Below are positions 3,622 through 19,011 of a DNA stretch of 64,000 bases, one piece after another. Position numbers and translations under genes: made by a program. Position 1 is the first letter of the stretch. The number at the start of each line of letters is the position of its first letter. The notes below the pieces were generated by a model. It did no database searches. It saw only the letters and a list, made by a program, of their open reading frames with translations, and was not told where the DNA came from. This DNA is from Methanolobus vulcani (lineage in GTDB: Archaea > Halobacteriota > Methanosarcinia > Methanosarcinales > Methanosarcinaceae): the NCBI RefSeq assembly GCF_900100715.1, contig NZ_FNCA01000012.1:1-64000 (forward strand), written 5' to 3'.

Positions 3622-4519
3622 CTAACCATTCGTTGACTTTATCCGGGTTTGCATCTACCCATTTCTGAGCAGCTTCTTCCTCAGGTACACCATCTGCAAG
3701 ATCAGACATTACAGACTGGATATCATCGTGAGTCCAGTGGAATCTGCTAATTATTCCGTAAAGTTCAGGGTCATCTTCTGCGAGTCCTTTTCTTGCGAGT
3801 GTTTCTACATGGTCAGCCTGTCCATAAACACCATTTGGATCATCAAGGTATTTCAGGTCAAAGCTGTTAAATGCCCAGTGAGGTGACCAGAGAGTTACAA
3901 CAACCCATTTCCCATCTTCTATTGAGTTCTTAAGTTCAGCTGTCATTCCTGCACTGCTGCTTGCAACAAGTTCGTAATCAAGGCTATAGTTCTCAATTGC
4001 AGTTTCGGTTGTTGACATGATGCCTGCTCCCGGATCAATACCAATGATCTCACCATTGAACTGATCCTTATGAGCATTTAGTTCATCAATAGAATCAATT
4101 GTCACATATGTTGGAACAACAAGACCGATGCGGCAGTCTTCAAGATTCACTGCAACACTATCGATTTCATTTCCATACTGTTCCCAGTAATTCTTCTGGG
4201 TCTGTGGAAGCCATGCGGAAGTTGTAAAATCGAACTGACTGTCTGCAAGTCCCTGATAGAGTGCACCTGCGTCAACAGCAATTATATCAACATTATAACC
4301 TGCTTTTTCAAGAACAAGTTTCATAACATTAGTACTGGCAATCTCCCCATCCCAGAGAACATAACCAATTGTTGCTTCTTTTGTAACCGGGGTTGTTTCT
4401 TGTACTGTTCCATTGTTCGTATTGTCTGCATTAGTAGTGTTCTGGCCAGCACATCCGCTTACAATGACAAGCATTGCAAGCATCAGTATGACTGTAATTA
4501 TTTTTGTTTGCTTTTTCAT
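3611..4519 (-). CDS. opuAC: Glycine betaine/proline betaine ABC transporter substrate-binding lipoprotein
   Basis: A 302-residue exported protein with a lipoprotein signal (MKKQTKII, hydrophobic stretch, then a VSGCAG lipobox with Cys at about residue 23) and an OpuAC/ProX-type fold. Aromatic residues suited to an aromatic cage for quaternary ammonium groups are present (AWLPQTQKNYW, LWSPHWAF, RFHWTHDD). It delivers the osmolyte to the OpuAB permease. It is the last gene of the three-gene operon AA-AB-AC, about 60 bases after opuAB. Osmotic control is typical of this family, but no operator can be recognised here. Confidence 0.92.
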   Translation of the reverse strand: MKKQTKIITVILMLAMLVIVSGCAGQNTTNADNTNNGTVQETTPVTKEATIGYVLWDGEIASTNVMKLVLEKAGYNVDIIAVDAGALYQGLADSQFDFTTSAWLPQTQKNYWEQYGNEIDSVAVNLEDCRIGLVVPTYVTIDSIDELNAHKDQFNGEIIGIDPGAGIMSTTETAIENYSLDYELVASSSAGMTAELKNSIEDGKWVVVTLWSPHWAFNSFDLKYLDDPNGVYGQADHVETLARKGLAEDDPELYGIISRFHWTHDDIQSVMSDLADGVPEEEAAQKWVDANPDKVNEWLGEN

Positions 4520-11637: not shown

Positions 11638-12291
11638 TCATCGCAGGAGGGAATCTAGTTTCTTTTTCAAGAGTAAGTATTTCTCTTCGTTTTCAGGATA
11701 AAGGTTGATTTCTCCAGGCTTGATATTTATTTTGATGGCTTTTGGATAATGGGACATTCTATATGCATTTATGAAAATTATTATGCACATCAGAGGGACA
11801 AAGATTGATCTTATAATTATTTGTAAATCTATATTTCCAATTCTACGCGTGTTATCCAAGGAAAAATATGTTGTCGCCAGTATCGCTGAACCTAAAAATA
11901 AAAAATATGGTATCTTATATTTGTACAAGAAATTGTTAAAATCAGAGATATCTATGATTTTTTCCACAGGTATTGTCGTTTCTCTGAAAAATGGTTTTTT
12001 TATTCTCACTTCATCAGAGTAGATTGATATTTTATAAAGTGCTAGCAAATAGATTGTTGCTAAAATGCACGCACTTATAATCGTAATTCCCCATTCTGTG
12101 AAGATATGTATATAGAATAACTCCATAAAAAATAACATCACTAATGCTGTAGACACGGTGACTACTACGAATATCACTTGAAAGTCTACCATGCTCAAAG
12201 GTACTTTCATTTTGACGACATCGTTTGCTTTGTTCTGATCAACAATTTGTTGAGATGATTTAAAATTTGAATTGCTTTGTTTTGTCTCCAT
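11638..12291 (-). CDS. Membrane protein with possible PH-like domain, paired with the gene at 12293
   Basis: About 217 residues, no family recognised with certainty. Four hydrophobic segments are arranged as two pairs (around FQVIFVVVTVSTALVM and WGITIISACILATIYLLA, then YFLFLGSAILATTYF and SIFVPLMCIIIFIN). Between and after them are short beta-rich stretches (ISIYSDEVRIKKPFFRETTIPVEKI) of the sort seen in bacterial PH domains. The start is uncertain: ATG at 12291 follows the previous stop as TGACATG, ATG at 12306 is an alternative. It is the second gene of a two-gene operon with 12293-12895. Confidence 0.6.
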   Translation of the reverse strand: METKQSNSNFKSSQQIVDQNKANDVVKMKVPLSMVDFQVIFVVVTVSTALVMLFFMELFYIHIFTEWGITIISACILATIYLLALYKISIYSDEVRIKKPFFRETTIPVEKIIDISDFNNFLYKYKIPYFLFLGSAILATTYFSLDNTRRIGNIDLQIIIRSIFVPLMCIIIFINAYRMSHYPKAIKINIKPGEINLYPENEEKYLLLKKKLDSLLR

Positions 12292-12292
12292 G

Positions 12293-12895
12293 TCATGCAG
12301 TTTCATGTGTTTCAATTATCCTTTTCAGTTCTTCAGGTTCCTTTGAGTAAAATATGAAGTTGGATTTGTCGGTATCTACTCTCAGCAAATTTGAGTATGG
12401 AAGTCTTTTCAGTAGATTTATAATAACTACTGCTTCCAGGAATATAAGCCAGAAATCATAAAGGAATAGATTTATTCCTTCCATTAATGAAACTCCTGCT
12501 ATCCCATAAAAGAAGTCTTGCCCGGATTTGTAACTTATATATATTGTAAGAAAAAGTAATATGGTTACTATTGCCAAACGATATGCGTAGTTTCTATTCT
12601 TCTTTATTTGCACATCTTTTATGTCTTTCTTGTTAATCACCAGAGGACTCATAAGAGGTCTGTGAATTATTATCATGTGGGGATCTATCTCAACCTGTGT
12701 CCGTTCTTTAATAAGAAGGATGATGAATCCCATGTACCAGATTACATAAATCAGTATTTTGCATTCTGAAGTTCGCAGGCACAGAGCATAGAGTATTAAA
12801 GTTGCTACTATCATGGGGACAAGAACTTTTAACATGCTTTTGTCAAAGGTCATGTCCAGTTGCATCTTTTGTTTAAACTGGTTGTCTGTGTTCAT
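12293..12895 (-). CDS. Membrane protein with possible PH-like domain
   Basis: A 200-residue protein with hydrophobic segments at about residues 28-60 (in two parts) and 105-160 and a soluble tail (RLPYSNLLRVDTDKSNFIFYSKEPEELKRIIE). The stretch QVEIDPHMIIIHRPLMSPLVINKKDIKDV resembles a PH-domain strand pattern, and the final part looks like the same motif family as the gene at 11638. Function unknown. Transcribed from the E1 promoter element about 200 bases upstream, which leaves a long structured leader (see 12950-13060). Confidence 0.6.
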   Translation of the reverse strand: MNTDNQFKQKMQLDMTFDKSMLKVLVPMIVATLILYALCLRTSECKILIYVIWYMGFIILLIKERTQVEIDPHMIIIHRPLMSPLVINKKDIKDVQIKKNRNYAYRLAIVTILLFLTIYISYKSGQDFFYGIAGVSLMEGINLFLYDFWLIFLEAVVIINLLKRLPYSNLLRVDTDKSNFIFYSKEPEELKRIIETHETA

Positions 12896-12949
12896 TTTAG
12901 CAATCTCTTCTCAAATTAGAACCTGGCATTTCAATAGATCATTTGTATC

Positions 12950-13060
12950 ATCAGGAAGTTGGGGGAGCAAGGCCACATGTATGTGAGTCTAATCGGATTA
13001 CATTGCGACCTTGCAGTTGGTACATTGGGTTCCCACGGACTTTCTATATTTGTGGGGGAC
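12950..13060 (-). ncRNA. Structured leader or small RNA candidate
   Basis: Read on the minus strand from an expected start near 13056, the sequence can fold into a 5' hairpin (GTCCCCCAC with GTGGGAAC) and a second long imperfect hairpin (GCAAGGTCGCAATGTA with TACATGTGGCCTTGC), with TAATCCGATTA pairing inside. It is either the 5' leader of the 12293/11638 operon or a separate small RNA made from the E1 promoter. The plus strand has no convincing gene here. Based on inverted repeats seen by eye only. Confidence 0.35.
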
Positions 13061-13073
13061 AATACTAAAAAAA

Positions 13074-13113
13074 CATTAATTTATTTATGTATTATGGCCA
13101 AAGATTCAAACTG
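13074..13113 (-). promoter_or_regulatory. Promoter element E1 (TGGCCA family)
   Basis: Minus-strand sequence: CAGTTTGAATCTT, then TGGCCATAAT, then a TATA-like ATAAATAAA. TGGCCA is at 13095-13100. The same order is found in E2 (16452), E3 (17968) and, on the other strand, E4 (18149). It reads toward the gene at 12293. Confidence 0.65.
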
Positions 13114-13162
13114 TTTGGTATGGATCAATTATAAAAAAGTACAGGGATGATCAGAAATCTCT

Positions 13163-14095
13163 TTATTCTTTCATTTCTGTTGCACTGAGGTATGCATCTT
13201 CCAGTGAAAGGGAGTTCTCGATAAGTTTGAATACCTGTCCTCCGTTGTTCACAATTAATTTGTTAAGTTCCGGTTTAACATCTGTTTTAGAGTTAACATA
13301 GATCTCCAGAATATTCTTCTCTTTTAATTCGGTCTTTACAACGTATTCCACACCTTCTACTAAAGATACTATTTCAGGTGACATGTTGTAAATTCCAACT
13401 GTAATTACTCCATTTGACTCAAGCCGTCGGATATCTCCGATTGTTCCTTCGGTGATAAGCCTGCCATTCTTCAGGATTCCTATATGGGTGCAGATCTCCT
13501 GAATTTCCAGAAGGTTGTGGGATGAGGCGAATATTGTAATTCCATTATCATTGCAGTCACGGATTATCTGTTTGACCTGTCGCACTCCAACAGGGTCGAG
13601 ACCATTTGTGGGTTCGTCGAGAATGAGTATTTTCGGGTCATTTAAAAGGGCCTGTGCAATGCTTAATCGCTTTTTCATTCCATGGGAAAAAGAGCCTACT
13701 TTTTTTGTCATCTCGTTTTCAAGGCCGACACGTTCCAGTAAAAGCATTGATTGTTCCTGTCCTTCATCTTTGCTAAGACCTTTCAGTCTGGCAAAATAAT
13801 TCATCTGGCTGAGGGCAGTTCGTTCATCATAAAACTCAGAGTCCTGCGGAACCAGACCCAATATATTTTTGATTTTGTCAGCTTCCAGGGACAGATCCAT
13901 ATTATCAATAAGTATCTGACCACCATTTGGAATTGAAAGTCCTGATAGTATTTTGATGGTGGTGGTTTTTCCTGCGCCATTCTGTCCCAGAAATCCGTAT
14001 ATACTTCCCTTTTCCACGTCAAAGGACAGATCTTCCAGTACGTATCTTGGGCCATATTTTTTGTACAGGTTCTTAATGGAGATTGCTGTTGCCAT
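13163..14095 (-). CDS. ABC transporter ATP-binding protein (ABC-2 exporter type)
   Basis: A 310-residue ATPase. Walker A is GQNGAGKTTT, the signature GSFSHGMKKR, Walker B LILDEPTNGLDPVG and the switch ASSHNL. The C-terminal 80 residues form the extension typical of CcmA/NosF-like exporters. It overlaps the permease gene at 14095 by one base, so the two proteins are made together and form one exporter. The substrate is unknown; the neighbourhood of membrane and exported proteins suggests an envelope function. Confidence 0.93.
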   Translation of the reverse strand: MATAISIKNLYKKYGPRYVLEDLSFDVEKGSIYGFLGQNGAGKTTTIKILSGLSIPNGGQILIDNMDLSLEADKIKNILGLVPQDSEFYDERTALSQMNYFARLKGLSKDEGQEQSMLLLERVGLENEMTKKVGSFSHGMKKRLSIAQALLNDPKILILDEPTNGLDPVGVRQVKQIIRDCNDNGITIFASSHNLLEIQEICTHIGILKNGRLITEGTIGDIRRLESNGVITVGIYNMSPEIVSLVEGVEYVVKTELKEKNILEIYVNSKTDVKPELNKLIVNNGGQVFKLIENSLSLEDAYLSATEMKE

Positions 14096-14844
14096 TATAG
14101 ATCTCTCCTTTTAAATACTAATACATCAATGGATAAAGTGGCAATTATAAAGACCAACATTGAAAAGAGGTTCTTGATTATATTGAAATAGTCATTTTCT
14201 CCGGGGAGATTTTTCATCGTTTCTGAAACAGCAAAAGCATAATAGGGGGGAGTTAAGTATCTCAAATACTCGATGCCACCCTGCATAAAGAAGTATATGG
14301 TAATTCCCAGTAGTACTGCTGACATCGTAAATGCTATTTTGTTATTTCCTGACAGAATTGACACAAAAGTAAAGATACTGATAAAGCATCCCAGATACAG
14401 ACTTGAAAATAGCCAGAAAAATATCATTTTCTGCAGGTCAAAGACGTTGCCTGATGTGAAATTATCTACCTGTCCTACAATTGCAACAATAAAAGTAAGG
14501 AATGCAAATATTATGAATAAAAAACAAAACTTGCCAAGCACAAAAGATGCTCTGTCAATTTTTGAAATTATATATCTGACCGTTCCATTTTCAACTTCAT
14601 TGCTTATGCTGTCAAATGCTGTAACAAGTATGAAAAAAGGTCCGATGATCAGTATTATCATGAAAGAAATATAGGTGAACGGAATATTACCCGGATCTGA
14701 AAACAGGAATGCTAAAGATGTGCTGTAGTGCATTGCCAGAATACAAATGAATGCCAATGCACTGCTGAAAAACCATACATGCCTGCTTTTTACCCCTCTT
14801 AATATCTCGTCCTGGGCAACAATTCTTATTTTAGATATATTCAT
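14095..14844 (-). CDS. ABC-2 type transporter permease
   Basis: About 249 residues with six hydrophobic segments (for example VWFFSSALAFICILAM, FMIILIIGPFFILVTAF, FCFLFIIFAFLTFIVAI and NLFSMLVFIIATLSIDVLVF), as in NosY-type ABC-2 permeases. The segment FDSISNEVENGTVRYIISK between helices 2 and 3 is the typical coupling region. I start at the ATG at 14844 (MNISKIRIVAQDE), which fits family N termini; the open frame runs on to 14970, adding 42 partly hydrophobic residues, and an earlier start cannot be excluded. Partner of the ATPase at 13163. Confidence 0.85.
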   Translation of the reverse strand: MNISKIRIVAQDEILRGVKSRHVWFFSSALAFICILAMHYSTSLAFLFSDPGNIPFTYISFMIILIIGPFFILVTAFDSISNEVENGTVRYIISKIDRASFVLGKFCFLFIIFAFLTFIVAIVGQVDNFTSGNVFDLQKMIFFWLFSSLYLGCFISIFTFVSILSGNNKIAFTMSAVLLGITIYFFMQGGIEYLRYLTPPYYAFAVSETMKNLPGENDYFNIIKNLFSMLVFIIATLSIDVLVFKRRDL

Positions 14845-15086
14845 GTTATCAGTCCGTTCTATTATCACTGATGTTGCATGCGACAAATGCTGCAAATGAT
14901 CCAATATCGAATGAATTAAAATATTAATAACTACAAACCCACTTAATAATGCTGTGGCTGCAATCTTCAATTAATATGTTCTATATCCTCGCTGCATTAT
15001 GATTATATGTTTTTCTTCTAATAGTTGAAGTGATTGAATAGGTGGTTATAGCAATTACCAAAATACCAAAAATGAAAGACAAATTC

Positions 15087-15691
15087 TCAAAATCTGTTAT
15101 CTTTTATCGTATGTATTTGTTCATATGTCCAAAAAAAGACTATAGACACAATTCCAAGAATTGTTATTCCTTTTAGTATAGGTAAAACTGGATACTTAAG
15201 AACAGAGTAACGAGCAAGAATGAAAATTGAGCATGTAATATAGAAAAAAATCCAATTTTTTAGATTAATTATATATGTATCATTTTTTATGAAGAAAATC
15301 TTTGATACTTTATCGGCAACAATTATCAGAACTAGTATCCAAAATATCTGATTTATGTTATACATTATGGAACTGTAAATATATACCAGGTATATTAATG
15401 TTAGAAATGCAATTATTTTTATCTGAATTTCTGAGTTTCTCTTATTTGTTTCATCTTTTATATTAAGTGCATGTTTTAGTATCAAATTTATAGAAGAATT
15501 TTCCAAATTCTCTTTCCTCCTATACCAAACCATAATAGTGAAGTGAATTATAGTAATTAATAGCGGCAGAGTAAATTGAACGGATGTTTCTATTGAAATG
15601 TAGCCTTCCAGTTTAACTAAACCAACAATCAGGAAAGAAAAAAATAAACTGGAATAGAACGCCAGATTTCTTCCTTTACAATTGCATTCAT
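15087..15691 (-). pseudogene. Membrane protein gene with a frameshift in its 5' part
   Basis: A multi-pass membrane protein of unknown family. The clear ORF begins only at an ATG at 15533, but the same frame continues upstream with protein-like hydrophobic sequence (SFLIVGLVKLEGY, FTLPLLITIIHFTIM) that has no start codon. In another frame a good start exists: GAGGGGAAGG followed by ATG at 15691, giving MNAIVKEEIWRSIPVYFF before it meets a stop. The two frames meet at a run of seven A (15638-15644). One extra base there would give an intact protein of about 201 residues with five or so membrane helices. It could be a real mutation, phase-variable tract or sequencing error. Confidence 0.65.
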
Positions 15692-15795
15692 TTAATCCTT
15701 CCCCTCAAAATCTACAAAATAAAATATCGCTGATTATGTTTTCATCGATGTTGCTGTTACATAACCCTAATTTTCAAAATTGATGTAGTGCTTTT

Positions 15796-16353
15796 TTAAT
15801 CATAAACTTGATCATCTGAACTAGGAGGAGTCCCACTGGAATCCACATCTACATTACGGTATACAACATCAACTTCCATTTTTTCCCCATTTCGTCTTAT
15901 CTCCCCTGCTTGTTCAATTATGTATTTTATGTTTAGTATGCCCCCGAAATCTACCCAGCCAATTACTCCCGCTTCTGATGCTGTAAAACGAGCTTTGCTT
16001 TTAGAATAGCCAACGACATTTCCATTGTAGATATATATCTCTGGCTTACTTCCTTCATTCATAAGTATGCCGGGTTCTAATTCTAATTTGTATTCTTTCC
16101 CGGATAACTGAATAGTAATTTTGCCAGAATCTGCATCTTTCATGAAAGCTACAGGGTCAACAGTGACAATATCATATTTCGTTATTGAATCGAACCTCTG
16201 TAAATTGACTCCATCATCTCCATTAATTTCTATTTTTTCAAAATGCACATTTTGTGAAGTTTCGTTTGATGATTCTACTGCTTTCTCATTTATAACTATC
16301 AGAGAAACGAATACCAGTACAAAACAAATTATTATAATTTGTTTATTATTCAT
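15796..16353 (-). CDS. Exported protein resembling a protease propeptide domain
   Basis: A 185-residue protein with an N-terminal signal or anchor (MNNKQIIIICFVLVFVSLIV) followed by a soluble beta-rich domain. The segment YIYNGNVVGYSKSKARFTAS ... GVIGWVDFGGILNIKYIIE resembles the propeptide of archaeal zinc metallopeptidases, where a beta-sheet domain precedes the catalytic part; no HEXXH motif or catalytic domain follows. It may be a stand-alone inhibitor-like domain, or a remnant. The resemblance is from memory and uncertain. Preceded by promoter element E2. Confidence 0.55.
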   Translation of the reverse strand: MNNKQIIIICFVLVFVSLIVINEKAVESSNETSQNVHFEKIEINGDDGVNLQRFDSITKYDIVTVDPVAFMKDADSGKITIQLSGKEYKLELEPGILMNEGSKPEIYIYNGNVVGYSKSKARFTASEAGVIGWVDFGGILNIKYIIEQAGEIRRNGEKMEVDVVYRNVDVDSSGTPPSSDDQVYD

Positions 16354-16451
16354 TTATCTCTCGCCTTGCCTTTATACGCTTTTGAGCCGAAATAACTCTA
16401 TAATCTTATGTTGATATATGGTGCATATTATTGCAATGTAGTCGTTTCATT

Positions 16452-16486
16452 TTTTATTTAACTATTATGGCCAGAGCTCAAACTGA
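16452..16486 (-). promoter_or_regulatory. Promoter element E2 (TGGCCA family)
   Basis: Minus strand: CAGTTTGAGCTC, TGGCCATAATA, then GTTAAATAAA. TGGCCA is at 16468-16473, about 115 bases before the start of the exported protein gene at 16353. Nearly identical to E1 and E3. Confidence 0.65.
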
Positions 16487-16663
16487 AAATACTATAGTTC
16501 AATTTTTTGATGCAAAAAGACACCAGTAATAAACAACTTCAAAAAAAGAAAATAGAAGGCTATGGATAACCTCAGCCGATTTCATAAGATGCTACAAGCA
16601 CTTCTCATGTATTTACATCAATAACAAGATTCATGTTCTACCGGATATTGCATACAAAATGAA

Positions 16664-16951
16664 TTAGCGATTTTCCATTGCGATCGTGATCCTGTAAAGA
16701 AGTGATGACAAAACTATCACTGCAACCACCCACAAGATGCCGGTTTCAACCAACATTCTGGAAAAATCCGCACCTGATATGTCCATCAGGTACAAGGAGC
16801 CCGTTACATATCCAACCTTAAAAATATCATTTTGAAATCGGGAGCGTTTCATGTCCGGATCATTATCAAAATACTTGTCCTGCAACAAATAATATAATTT
16901 ATACAGTATCACGGATTCTATTAAAAAAACAAGACTTGATAGCATATCCAT
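16664..16951 (-). CDS. Small membrane protein, unknown function
   Basis: A 95-residue protein with three hydrophobic stretches: near the N terminus (LSSLVFLIESVILYKLYYLL), residues 47-57 (VGYVTGSLYLM) and a C-terminal helix (ILWVVAVIVLSSLLYRI). A GGAG ribosome site lies eight bases before the ATG at 16951. No recognised family. It lies between two genes carrying the TGGCCA promoter elements, but has no such element itself. Confidence 0.65.
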   Translation of the reverse strand: MDMLSSLVFLIESVILYKLYYLLQDKYFDNDPDMKRSRFQNDIFKVGYVTGSLYLMDISGADFSRMLVETGILWVVAVIVLSSLLYRITIAMENR

Positions 16952-17091
16952 ATTAAGATCTCCGATTTTGATTATTGTGAGTGTGATCTCATTTTATATT
17001 AGTTAGAAACTATGCCTGTATTAGATCAATTTGAAATGATCGTATCGGTCTAACACAGTGCAAGTTTCAATCAAGTTTGTTTAATTTGCCT

Positions 17092-17799
17092 TTAATATTC
17101 GTTAGCACTAGCATACCACGTGAAACTGGGATATGTTCCTGCTGGAGATTTTACCTGTACCCCAGCAGCATTAAATCCTACATCAAAAGTGCCTGTTCCA
17201 CTAGCAGACCACTTTGATTCAAACTGAGTTGTAGTGAAAACATTAGGATATAACTTGCCATCGGGATCAGTGAATGTTTGAGATATTGAAGCAACTACTG
17301 GCACGGATAATCCAAGTGTAAGTGTCTTAGTCTCACCACTTTCTGTATACACCGTTCCACTTGGTGACCAATCAACAATTTCTCCATTATTAATATTTTT
17401 GATACCCGTTTTAATCCATTTCAATGGTAATGGCACATTAAGCTTATCAGTAGATTGTACCCAAATAACGAAATAATCATAATCAGGGTCATTTTCATTA
17501 TCGACAGAATACATTCTGTAGGACATCAATTGCTGGCCATAGATGTTACTTGTATCTGATGCATCAGACCCTATTAATGTTAATCCACTTGTAGAAGGAT
17601 TGGGGTTACTTAATGAACGTATGCCAATATCTGATTCATTTAGTAGTATTTCAGGTTTAGAAACATGCTTACTCACCGAAATTCCACCACCATCAAAATT
17701 ATTTACTTCTTTAGCACTCACAGCCGGTACAAACGCCATGCTAACCAGCAACGTTGCCGCAAGCATCATGCTTAATCCAAATATAATATATGTTTTCAT
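17092..17799 (-). CDS. Secreted protein, unknown function
   Basis: A 235-residue exported protein with a classic signal peptide (MKTYIIFGLSMMLAATLLV, then a PAVSAKE cleavage site). The mature part is rich in Ser, Thr, Tyr and Trp and probably all-beta (SYRMYSVDNENDPDYDYFVIWVQST, WSASGTGTFDVGF); it carries no anchor, so it is likely released or surface-associated. The start at 17799 is preferred because GGTGA lies five bases upstream; the adjoining ATG at 17802 is too close. Preceded by a hairpin in the leader (17890-17927) and promoter element E3. Confidence 0.7.
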   Translation of the reverse strand: MKTYIIFGLSMMLAATLLVSMAFVPAVSAKEVNNFDGGGISVSKHVSKPEILLNESDIGIRSLSNPNPSTSGLTLIGSDASDTSNIYGQQLMSYRMYSVDNENDPDYDYFVIWVQSTDKLNVPLPLKWIKTGIKNINNGEIVDWSPSGTVYTESGETKTLTLGLSVPVVASISQTFTDPDGKLYPNVFTTTQFESKWSASGTGTFDVGFNAAGVQVKSPAGTYPSFTWYASANEY

Positions 17800-17889
17800 C
17801 ATTTCACCTTTTGTTTTGTCCCAAAAAGCAAAATTTGACAAGCTTTAAGTATCCTCAAAGCCAACCATAACCTTGCCTTAGGGCGTTCC

Positions 17890-17927
17890 GGGGTTCAAGT
17901 AGACTCTGCAAGTTTAGTTTGAACCCC
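17890..17927. repeat. Inverted repeat in the leader of the secreted protein gene
   Basis: GGGGTTCAA (17890-17898) pairs with TTGAACCCC (17919-17927) around a 20-base loop. It sits in the untranslated leader of the gene at 17092, between E3 and the start codon, so it may affect RNA stability or translation. Confidence 0.55.
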
Positions 17928-17967
17928 ACCCCACATTATTATAATGTGACATCGTAAAATTATTTGT

Positions 17968-18003
17968 TGTTTTATTTATCTATTGTGGCCATCGTTTAAA
18001 CTG
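17968..18003 (-). promoter_or_regulatory. Promoter element E3 (TGGCCA family)
   Basis: Minus strand: CAGTTTAAACGA, TGGCCACAATA, GATAAATAAA. TGGCCA is at 17986-17991, about 187 bases before the start of the secreted protein gene. Confidence 0.65.
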
Positions 18004-18148
18004 AGTATGCAGAACATATAATTTATAATTATAAATTTAATACTTGTCTCGGTTATTTTTTTATAATTCTGCCGGTATGTTACGTTTTCTACGTGGGGTA
18101 CTTTATGTAAAATAATGTGGTATATTTGATGACGTAGTATTTTGAAAT

Positions 18149-18182
18149 TAGTTGGAATGATTGGCCATAATCTATATATCTT
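18149..18182 (+). promoter_or_regulatory. Promoter element E4 (TGGCCA family), upstream of the regulator gene
   Basis: Plus strand: AGTTGGAATGAT, TGGCCATAAT, CTATATATC. TGGCCA is at 18162-18167, about 95 bases before the TTG start of the winged-helix regulator. E4 has the same spacing as E1 but a better TATA box. If the regulator binds the TGGCCA element, this would be autoregulation. Confidence 0.6.
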
Positions 18183-18261
18183 ATATTTGTTATCTTCAAC
18201 CAGTTGTTTGTTTAAACGTAGAACGCATCGACAAATGATGTGATGGTGGGGGATCCATTAT

Positions 18262-19011
18262 TTGAAAATAAGGTTAAGCAACATTTTGAAAATCTTGGTT
18301 TTTTTGTTATTAATTGTATGCGGCTGCCTTATTGCAAGTGCCGAACCTTACGTTACTTTTGAGCCAGTAAAAGACATTCCTCGGGAGAATGTACATGATA
18401 CTGGATGTGATGTTAATCTTACTTTCCGGGATCTTCCCCTTAAACTCAAATTTATATGGGTAGGTTGTACGATCTGGTTTCTCATAGTCTCACTGGGAAA
18501 ATTCATTCCACTGATTCTGGGGAAAATGGCTTGTAAAAAAGGTGAAAAGAACAGGAAAAAGATACTTTCGTATGTGTCTGAAAATCCCGGATGCTCGGAG
18601 AGCGATATTCTTTCTGATTTGGAGATGAAAAGAGGAACGTTCAGGTATCATGTAGATAAGCTCCAACTTTCAAATCTCCTTGTTGCTATCAGGCAGGGGC
18701 GCTTCATCAATTATTTTAGTAAGGGTAATTCTAATGAAAAATCTCTGCAAGCCTCTGTTTCTAATACACAAAGTGATACCAGAAAATGCGTTCTGGAAAC
18801 AATATGTGAAGAACCCGGTGTGACTGGTAAAGAATTATCAGAAAAAATAGGTGTTGACAAGAGTACCATTCACTGGCACATAACCAAACTGAAAGATGAA
18901 AATGCAATTCGTGATGAAAAAGATGGCAGGTACAGGAAATATTATCCAGCAAGCAACTTTTCAGCTATTCAGGACAACAACAATAACAAATTCGCAGTTA
19001 TGTCAGACTGA
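18262..19011 (+). CDS. Membrane-anchored transcriptional regulator with two winged-helix domains
   Basis: A 249-residue protein: N-terminal hydrophobic signal or anchor (residues 8-28), a short outside loop of about 40 residues with two Cys, a second membrane helix (FIWVGCTIWFLIVSLGKFI), then two cytoplasmic helix-turn-helix domains (KKILSYVSENPGCSESDIL ... MKRGTFRYHVDKL, and VLETICEEPGVTGKELS ... VDKSTIHWHITKL). This is the one-component membrane regulator design common in Methanosarcinales, likely coupling an envelope signal to promoters nearby. TTG start with GGTGG upstream. The 3' end overlaps metV by nine bases, convergent. Preceded by E4. Confidence 0.82.
   Translation: MKIRLSNILKILVFLLLIVCGCLIASAEPYVTFEPVKDIPRENVHDTGCDVNLTFRDLPLKLKFIWVGCTIWFLIVSLGKFIPLILGKMACKKGEKNRKKILSYVSENPGCSESDILSDLEMKRGTFRYHVDKLQLSNLLVAIRQGRFINYFSKGNSNEKSLQASVSNTQSDTRKCVLETICEEPGVTGKELSEKIGVDKSTIHWHITKLKDENAIRDEKDGRYRKYYPASNFSAIQDNNNNKFAVMSD

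Follow-up and report, generated by a model that had tools for sequence, protein, structure and literature searches.

The first 64,000 nucleotides of contig NZ_FNCA01000012.1 of the archaeon Methanolobus vulcani (the window) carry four copies, E1 to E4, of a promoter element with a TGGCCA core, arranged around the gene for a membrane-anchored double winged-helix regulator. What is this element for, and does the neighboring regulator act through it? We favor, with moderate confidence, the interpretation that E1-E4 are activator sites of this regulator and its paralogues, which would control genes for exported proteins, with a structured leader RNA, R2, adding post-transcriptional control. Three points go beyond the first-pass annotation of this DNA: the structured leader behind E3, a secreted partner whose gene precedes those of many regulator homologues, and a published locus of this type in Methanosarcina mazei. 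The results point to a defined, testable secreted-protein regulon in Methanosarcinales, with its likely sensor named, and add a structured leader RNA that is widespread but has no Rfam family; they also suggest a new reading of the M. mazei MM2441/sRNA162 locus. No description of the promoter family or of the leader family was found in the open-licence literature.

Promoter elements and their genome-wide targets

Direct reading of the region and R1, a sequence-only promoter model of 38 positions built once from 37 elements, placed all four elements within a few bases of the positions first proposed. E1 (13077..13113, minus strand; R1 E=1.2e-7) is an operator-like promoter element, CAGTTTGA-N5-TGGCCATAAT with a TATA-like box, E2 (16450..16485, minus strand; E=4.4e-7) is of the same CAGTTTGA/TGGCCATAAT type with a spacer of 4 bases, and E3 (17968..18003, minus strand; E=5.3e-6) is an E1-type element located 5' of the leader R2. 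E4 (18150..18185, plus strand; E=1.1e-5) is a regulator-type variant, TAGTTGGA-N5-TGGCCATAAT with a TATA box, located 5' of the regulator gene, which is thus itself preceded by an element, as had been claimed. The genes assigned to E1-E4 in the first-pass annotation were also correct (12293-12895; 15796-16353, exported; 17092-17802, secreted; and 18262-19011, the regulator, with a TTG start). E1 is conserved in the orthologous loci of four genomes (G046, G061, G062 and G063), E2 has orthologous sites at L068, L069 and L073, and the AGTTGGA variant of E4 is conserved upstream of regulator homologues. In the window, TGGCCA alone is not enriched (14 found vs 15.9 expected), TGGCCAYAAT is only moderately so when one mismatch is allowed (18 vs 10.2 expected, with 1 of 100 shuffles reaching as many), and the exact TGGCCAYAAT has four matches, all of them E1-E4. 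The repeats are not due to chance.

Across the 2.95-Mb genome, the exact core AGTTTRA-N3-6-TGGCCA has 7 matches and the reversed pattern 0. The four matches outside the window, which were not known beforehand, each lie 5' of a secreted-protein gene, the result that the first-pass annotation had asked a genome-wide search to look for, and two of them (on contigs C8 and C18) adjoin regulator paralogues. R1 found 17 sites at E<0.004 followed by an abrupt gap, the next match having E=0.45; four are those of the window locus, two lie on C8, eight lie on C18 between 82.7 and 98.6 kb, a stretch that also contains two paralogues of the regulator, and C9, C20 and C17 have one each. Fourteen of the 17 have a regulator homologue no more than about 6 kb away (binomial 3e-23, with sites treated as independent). 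A hydrophobic N-terminus is encoded by the gene after the site in 16/17 cases, compared to 6/39 other genes of the window (p=3e-8), using upstream gene starts for E4, L112 and L120 and a hydrophobicity threshold that, like the substitution limits of the motif scans, was set by choice and not systematically varied. The cargo in this genome comprises a subtilase, a reprolysin-type metallopeptidase, a C39-like peptidase (assigned with a score below the Pfam cut-off), transglutaminase-like and beta-helix surface proteins and, on C9, a halocin-C8-like precursor (TIGR04449, 28.5 vs a cut-off of 24 bits). The idea of a small, dedicated regulon with exported products is well supported, whereas exoproteases, a bacteriocin-like precursor and surface proteins do not bear out the label "envelope stress" that it had been given.

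The regulator and its putative sites across relatives

The regulator (18262..19011, plus strand) has, according to the family alignment and an AlphaFold model, an N-terminal hydrophobic helix, a short segment presumed to lie outside the cell, a second membrane helix and two winged-helix domains. The model places helices at residues 4-25 and 60-107, the long second helix running into the first of two winged helix-turn-helix (HTH) units. Pfam assigns HTH_24 (PF13412, 59.6 vs a gathering cut-off of 21.9 bits) and HTH_HVO_0163_N (PF24266, 53.3 vs 31 bits), and the protein remains below the NCBIfam cut-offs for the ArsR/SmtB metalloregulators (NF033788, 47.2 vs 55 bits) and MsvR (NF053755, 22 vs 220 bits), with no match to ArnR (NF041016). 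Foldseek neighbors were rejected as whole-protein matches: most correspond to a single winged-helix unit, and those spanning several domains align poorly. With predicted membrane helices and DNA-binding domains in one chain, the protein is of the membrane-bound one-component type by its predicted architecture.

Its single winged-helix units resemble ArsR/SmtB folds, yet the two tandem units, the membrane anchor and the scores below the NCBIfam cut-offs set it apart from ArsR/SmtB and MarR regulators. EarA of Methanococcus maripaludis, a soluble regulator of the fla operon, is likened to it here by description, not by sequence. EarA is an archaeal activator whose requirement can be bypassed by a change in the transcription factor B recognition element (BRE) of the target promoter, which points to activation at the BRE/TATA region (PMC5512572). 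ArnR and ArnR1 of Sulfolobus acidocaldarius are archaeal membrane-bound one-component activators of surface structures (PMC6396743); the window regulator differs from ArnR in lacking an NF041016 match, in carrying its tandem winged helices at the C-terminal end, and in its putative secreted-protein targets in Methanosarcinales.

The first-pass annotation had warned that a motif found generally, or not kept near orthologues of the regulator, would be a mere promoter motif; instead, sites stand upstream of regulator homologues across the family. Most of the 30 homologues that we read have one, usually with AGTTGGA or AGTTCGA, and in many homologous loci a small secreted protein is encoded between site and regulator. 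Exact-core matches numbered 64 vs 11 for the reversed control in 27 genomes of the genus and 18 vs 2 in genus g5. Among the 112 genomes of the family, an R1 site occurs in 62/65 with the regulator (E<1e-25) and in 12/47 without it (p=2e-15, with kinship ignored). Regulator and leader both reach other families of the order Methanosarcinales, and outside the order one weak regulator match is listed. The core is not strictly TGGCCA: regulator homologues of other genera have TGGACA or TGGTCA (TGGWCA), and Methanosarcina has an apparent TRCACA variant with the same upstream GTTTGA part. The proposal that a dimer binds a TGGCCA palindrome is consequently doubtful.

In L077 (8716-8907) and its relatives L078-L087, two sites stand in tandem; the distal element is followed by a strong hairpin (z=-4.6) and a T-run, and the proximal site, a TGGCTA element, precedes the gene for the secreted partner. 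The distal element may drive a small RNA.

A structured leader RNA behind a subset of sites

The stretch from E3 to the gene for the secreted protein contains R2 (17800..17960, minus strand), a leader of about 150 nucleotides (nt), whose extent is that of a model built once and might reach a few bases upstream of the transcription start. The window copy, a training member of the model, scores 158 bits (E=1.8e-36) and folds better than shuffled sequences (z=-4.9), in line with five R2 leaders overall (z from -3.3 to -6.2). The same stretch is conserved at C9, at C18 and in relatives with different cargo. In an alignment of 57 sequences that was itself fitted to the structure, 92% of cells were paired, whereas sliding the partners lowered this to 32-52%; double changes occurred in 12 of the 26 pairs. 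The model matches 69/112 genomes of the family and 98/186 of the order, with up to 26 copies per genome.

An open reading frame (ORF) was listed downstream in 31/32 R2 loci that we read, by a scan run in three versions with different limits; with the exception of those in L151 and L158, these ORFs start within about 20 nt of the model end and encode a hydrophobic N-terminus. A scripted scan found an R1-like motif 22-47 nt before the R2 start in 26/32 loci and in 5/960 control windows; counting by eye had given 24/32. Motif scans near regulators and leaders were run with limits of 4, 5 and 2 substitutions, and these leader counts use 2, for loci and control windows alike. Among the proteins encoded behind R2, the signal peptides are similar and the mature parts differ.

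At the gathering score, no family of Rfam release 15 matches any R2 leader on its own strand; matches around the leaders at E<=1 were antisense, upstream or below the gathering score, and those to mir-365 and mir-7640, below the gathering score, were taken as chance. The Rfam family sRNA162 (RF02792), which gives weak antisense matches at some R2 leaders, differs from R2 as an antisense transcript over its 5' part. R2 thus has no counterpart in Rfam and is new here.

The Methanosarcina mazei locus and rival explanations

A locus of this kind has been studied in M. mazei, where MM2440-MM2441 is bicistronic, the transcription start of MM2442 lies 184 nt upstream of the annotated start, sRNA162 overlaps it by 65 nt, and MM2441 is treated as an ArsR-type regulator of the methanol/methylamine switch and proposed to repress mtmB2C2 (PMC3510493). 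Likenesses to the present system are the homologous double winged-helix regulator, the upstream secreted partner and a neighboring gene whose long 5' untranslated region matches R2; the parts of that study that we read mention no transmembrane segment and describe no operator, exoprotein regulon or leader family (PMC3510493). Genome G082 contains two strong RF02792 copies side by side; next to the better one are genes for a secreted partner and for a regulator homologue, as well as an R2 leader followed by a secreted-protein gene. The G082 coordinates are consistent with the published 739-bp gap between regulator and MM2442 and with the 65-nt overlap; they place the published MM2442 start near R2 position 19-20, at the leader's 5' end. 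The MM2440-MM2442/sRNA162 locus matches the regulator-leader system.

R1 finds no good site at the G082 locus; inspection by eye revealed GTTTGAGAGTTTACACATAA immediately 5' of the leader's TATA-like box and GTTTGAGAATTTGCACAGAA ahead of the operon of partner and regulator, and the apparent site variant of Methanosarcina is GTTTGA-N5-TRCACA. At fixed spacing and up to one mismatch, this pattern gave 93 matches in the family, mostly in Methanosarcina, vs 6 for the reversed control, a total summed by hand that includes the sites that defined the pattern, which count as no test. The M. mazei-type locus thus differs from ours in its site core, and the M. vulcani genome has no sRNA162 match. The MM2441-like protein scores 16.9 bits against ArnR NF041016 (cut-off 400), and the MM2442-like protein of G082 is Cys-rich in appearance, like the halocin-type precursor of C9, with no NCBIfam match.

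Taken together, E1-E4 would be copies of one asymmetric site for an activator, CAGTTNRA-N4/5-TGGNCAYAA, adjoining the BRE/TATA region on its upstream side, and the protein most likely to bind them would be the neighboring membrane-anchored tandem winged-helix regulator and its paralogues. As a one-component system, it may sense a signal through the short stretch presumed to lie outside the cell, perhaps together with the small secreted protein whose gene precedes many homologues; its cytoplasmic double winged helix would then switch on the regulator gene itself and a small group of genes for exported proteins. Transcripts of some of these targets would begin with the conserved two-stem-loop R2, which ends a few bases before the start codon and probably provides a further layer of control, at the level of translation or mRNA stability. 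More tentatively, we consider it possible that this is an order-wide archaeal signaling system. In it, a membrane-anchored tandem winged-helix sensor and the small secreted protein encoded with it would govern exoproteases and bacteriocin-like peptides via co-evolving operators and a shared structured leader, amounting to exoprotein or competition sensing in methanogens.

Several observations weigh against regulation of exported-protein genes by this regulator. R1 was trained partly on regulator-flanking sites, making its clustering near regulators partly circular, unlike the exact-pattern test; the gene after the C17 site (L121) encodes an HTH regulator that lacks a hydrophobic N-terminus, not an exported protein; the exact TGGCCA form is only weakly specific in Methanosarcina (g13; 45 vs 28 in the reversed control); several R2 leaders have no R1 site; and the AlphaFold model of the regulator has a low predicted template modeling score (pTM 0.36). 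The only experimental study of a homologue links MM2441 to methyltransferase genes, not exoproteins, albeit indirectly, via sRNA162 overexpression (PMC3510493). Finally, the 12 genomes with R1 sites and no detected regulator include the near-complete G044 and G056. The latter, together with the absence of a nearby regulator at the C9, C20 and C17 sites and the fact that regulator genes are preceded by the element like other targets, would also fit a different, unlinked transcription factor, such as a general exoprotein or growth-phase regulator, with the double winged-helix genes as mere targets. We regard this as unlikely in view of the genome-level association (62/65 vs 12/47), the distinct AGTTGGA/AGTTCGA variant borne by regulator genes, and the core bases, which differ between lineages together with the regulator clades.

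Less probable again is that the double winged-helix protein binds the sites as a repressor and lets go of the exoprotein genes once a signal alters its state, as might be expected from the many repressors among ArsR-type winged-helix proteins and from the role proposed for MM2441; because the site is positioned 5' of the TATA box and overlaps neither it nor the start point, an activator fits better. That the repeats are copies of a promoter-plus-leader cassette that is mobile or was duplicated and is not specifically regulated would account for E3-type promoter, leader and signal peptide preceding different mature proteins in orthologous loci, and for tandem copies in Methanosarcina (L092, L093 and L095), but E1, E2, E4 and the C8 elements occur without an R2 leader and compensatory base changes indicate selection on the leader, which makes a cassette very improbable. 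A general methanogen promoter motif, suggested by the position at the BRE/TATA region, is scarcely credible for an element with 17 sites only in the genome, a sharp score gap and exported genes behind nearly all of them.

Neighboring genes and further loci

The E1 unit encodes a membrane protein of 200 amino acids (12293..12895, minus strand), conserved behind an E1-type site in L068, L069, L070 and L072, and a second membrane protein whose ORF overlaps it (11638..12315, minus strand). Its leader (12896..13073, minus strand; fold z=-2.8) forms a GCAAGGTC...GGCCTTGC hairpin unlike R2 and is conserved in five loci; a second copy of the hairpin is found at L072:4036-4180. Between E1 and E2, all on the minus strand, lie genes for an ABC transporter ATPase (13163..14095; Pfam ABC_tran, 1.7e-32), an ABC-2 type permease (14095..14970; ABC2_membrane_2, 9e-13), a small membrane protein with hydrophobic segments (15087..15533) and the exported protein of 185 amino acids after E2 (15796..16353), which has a hydrophobic N-terminus. 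The 15087..15533 gene is likely part of the transcription unit of the E2 gene, and in L069 and L073 an E2-like site lies 0.5-0.6 kb upstream of the ABC-2 permease. The secreted protein behind E3 and R2 (17092..17802, minus strand; 236 amino acids) has a signal-peptide-like N-terminus and matches no Pfam or NCBIfam family.

In the Methanosarcina loci L092, L093 and L095, secreted C39-like genes are repeated in tandem, with C-terminal fragments of HdrB across a divergent promoter pair. Such HdrB-like fragments lie downstream of some Methanosarcina sites; we rejected them as targets, and they are probably remnants, because a variant site in the G083 tandem cluster faces the other way, immediately 5' of the R2 leader that belongs to the C39-like gene. 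At L096, from position 3937 onward, a halocin-C8-like gene is followed by a thioredoxin-like gene, an order resembling that near sRNA162 in L192.

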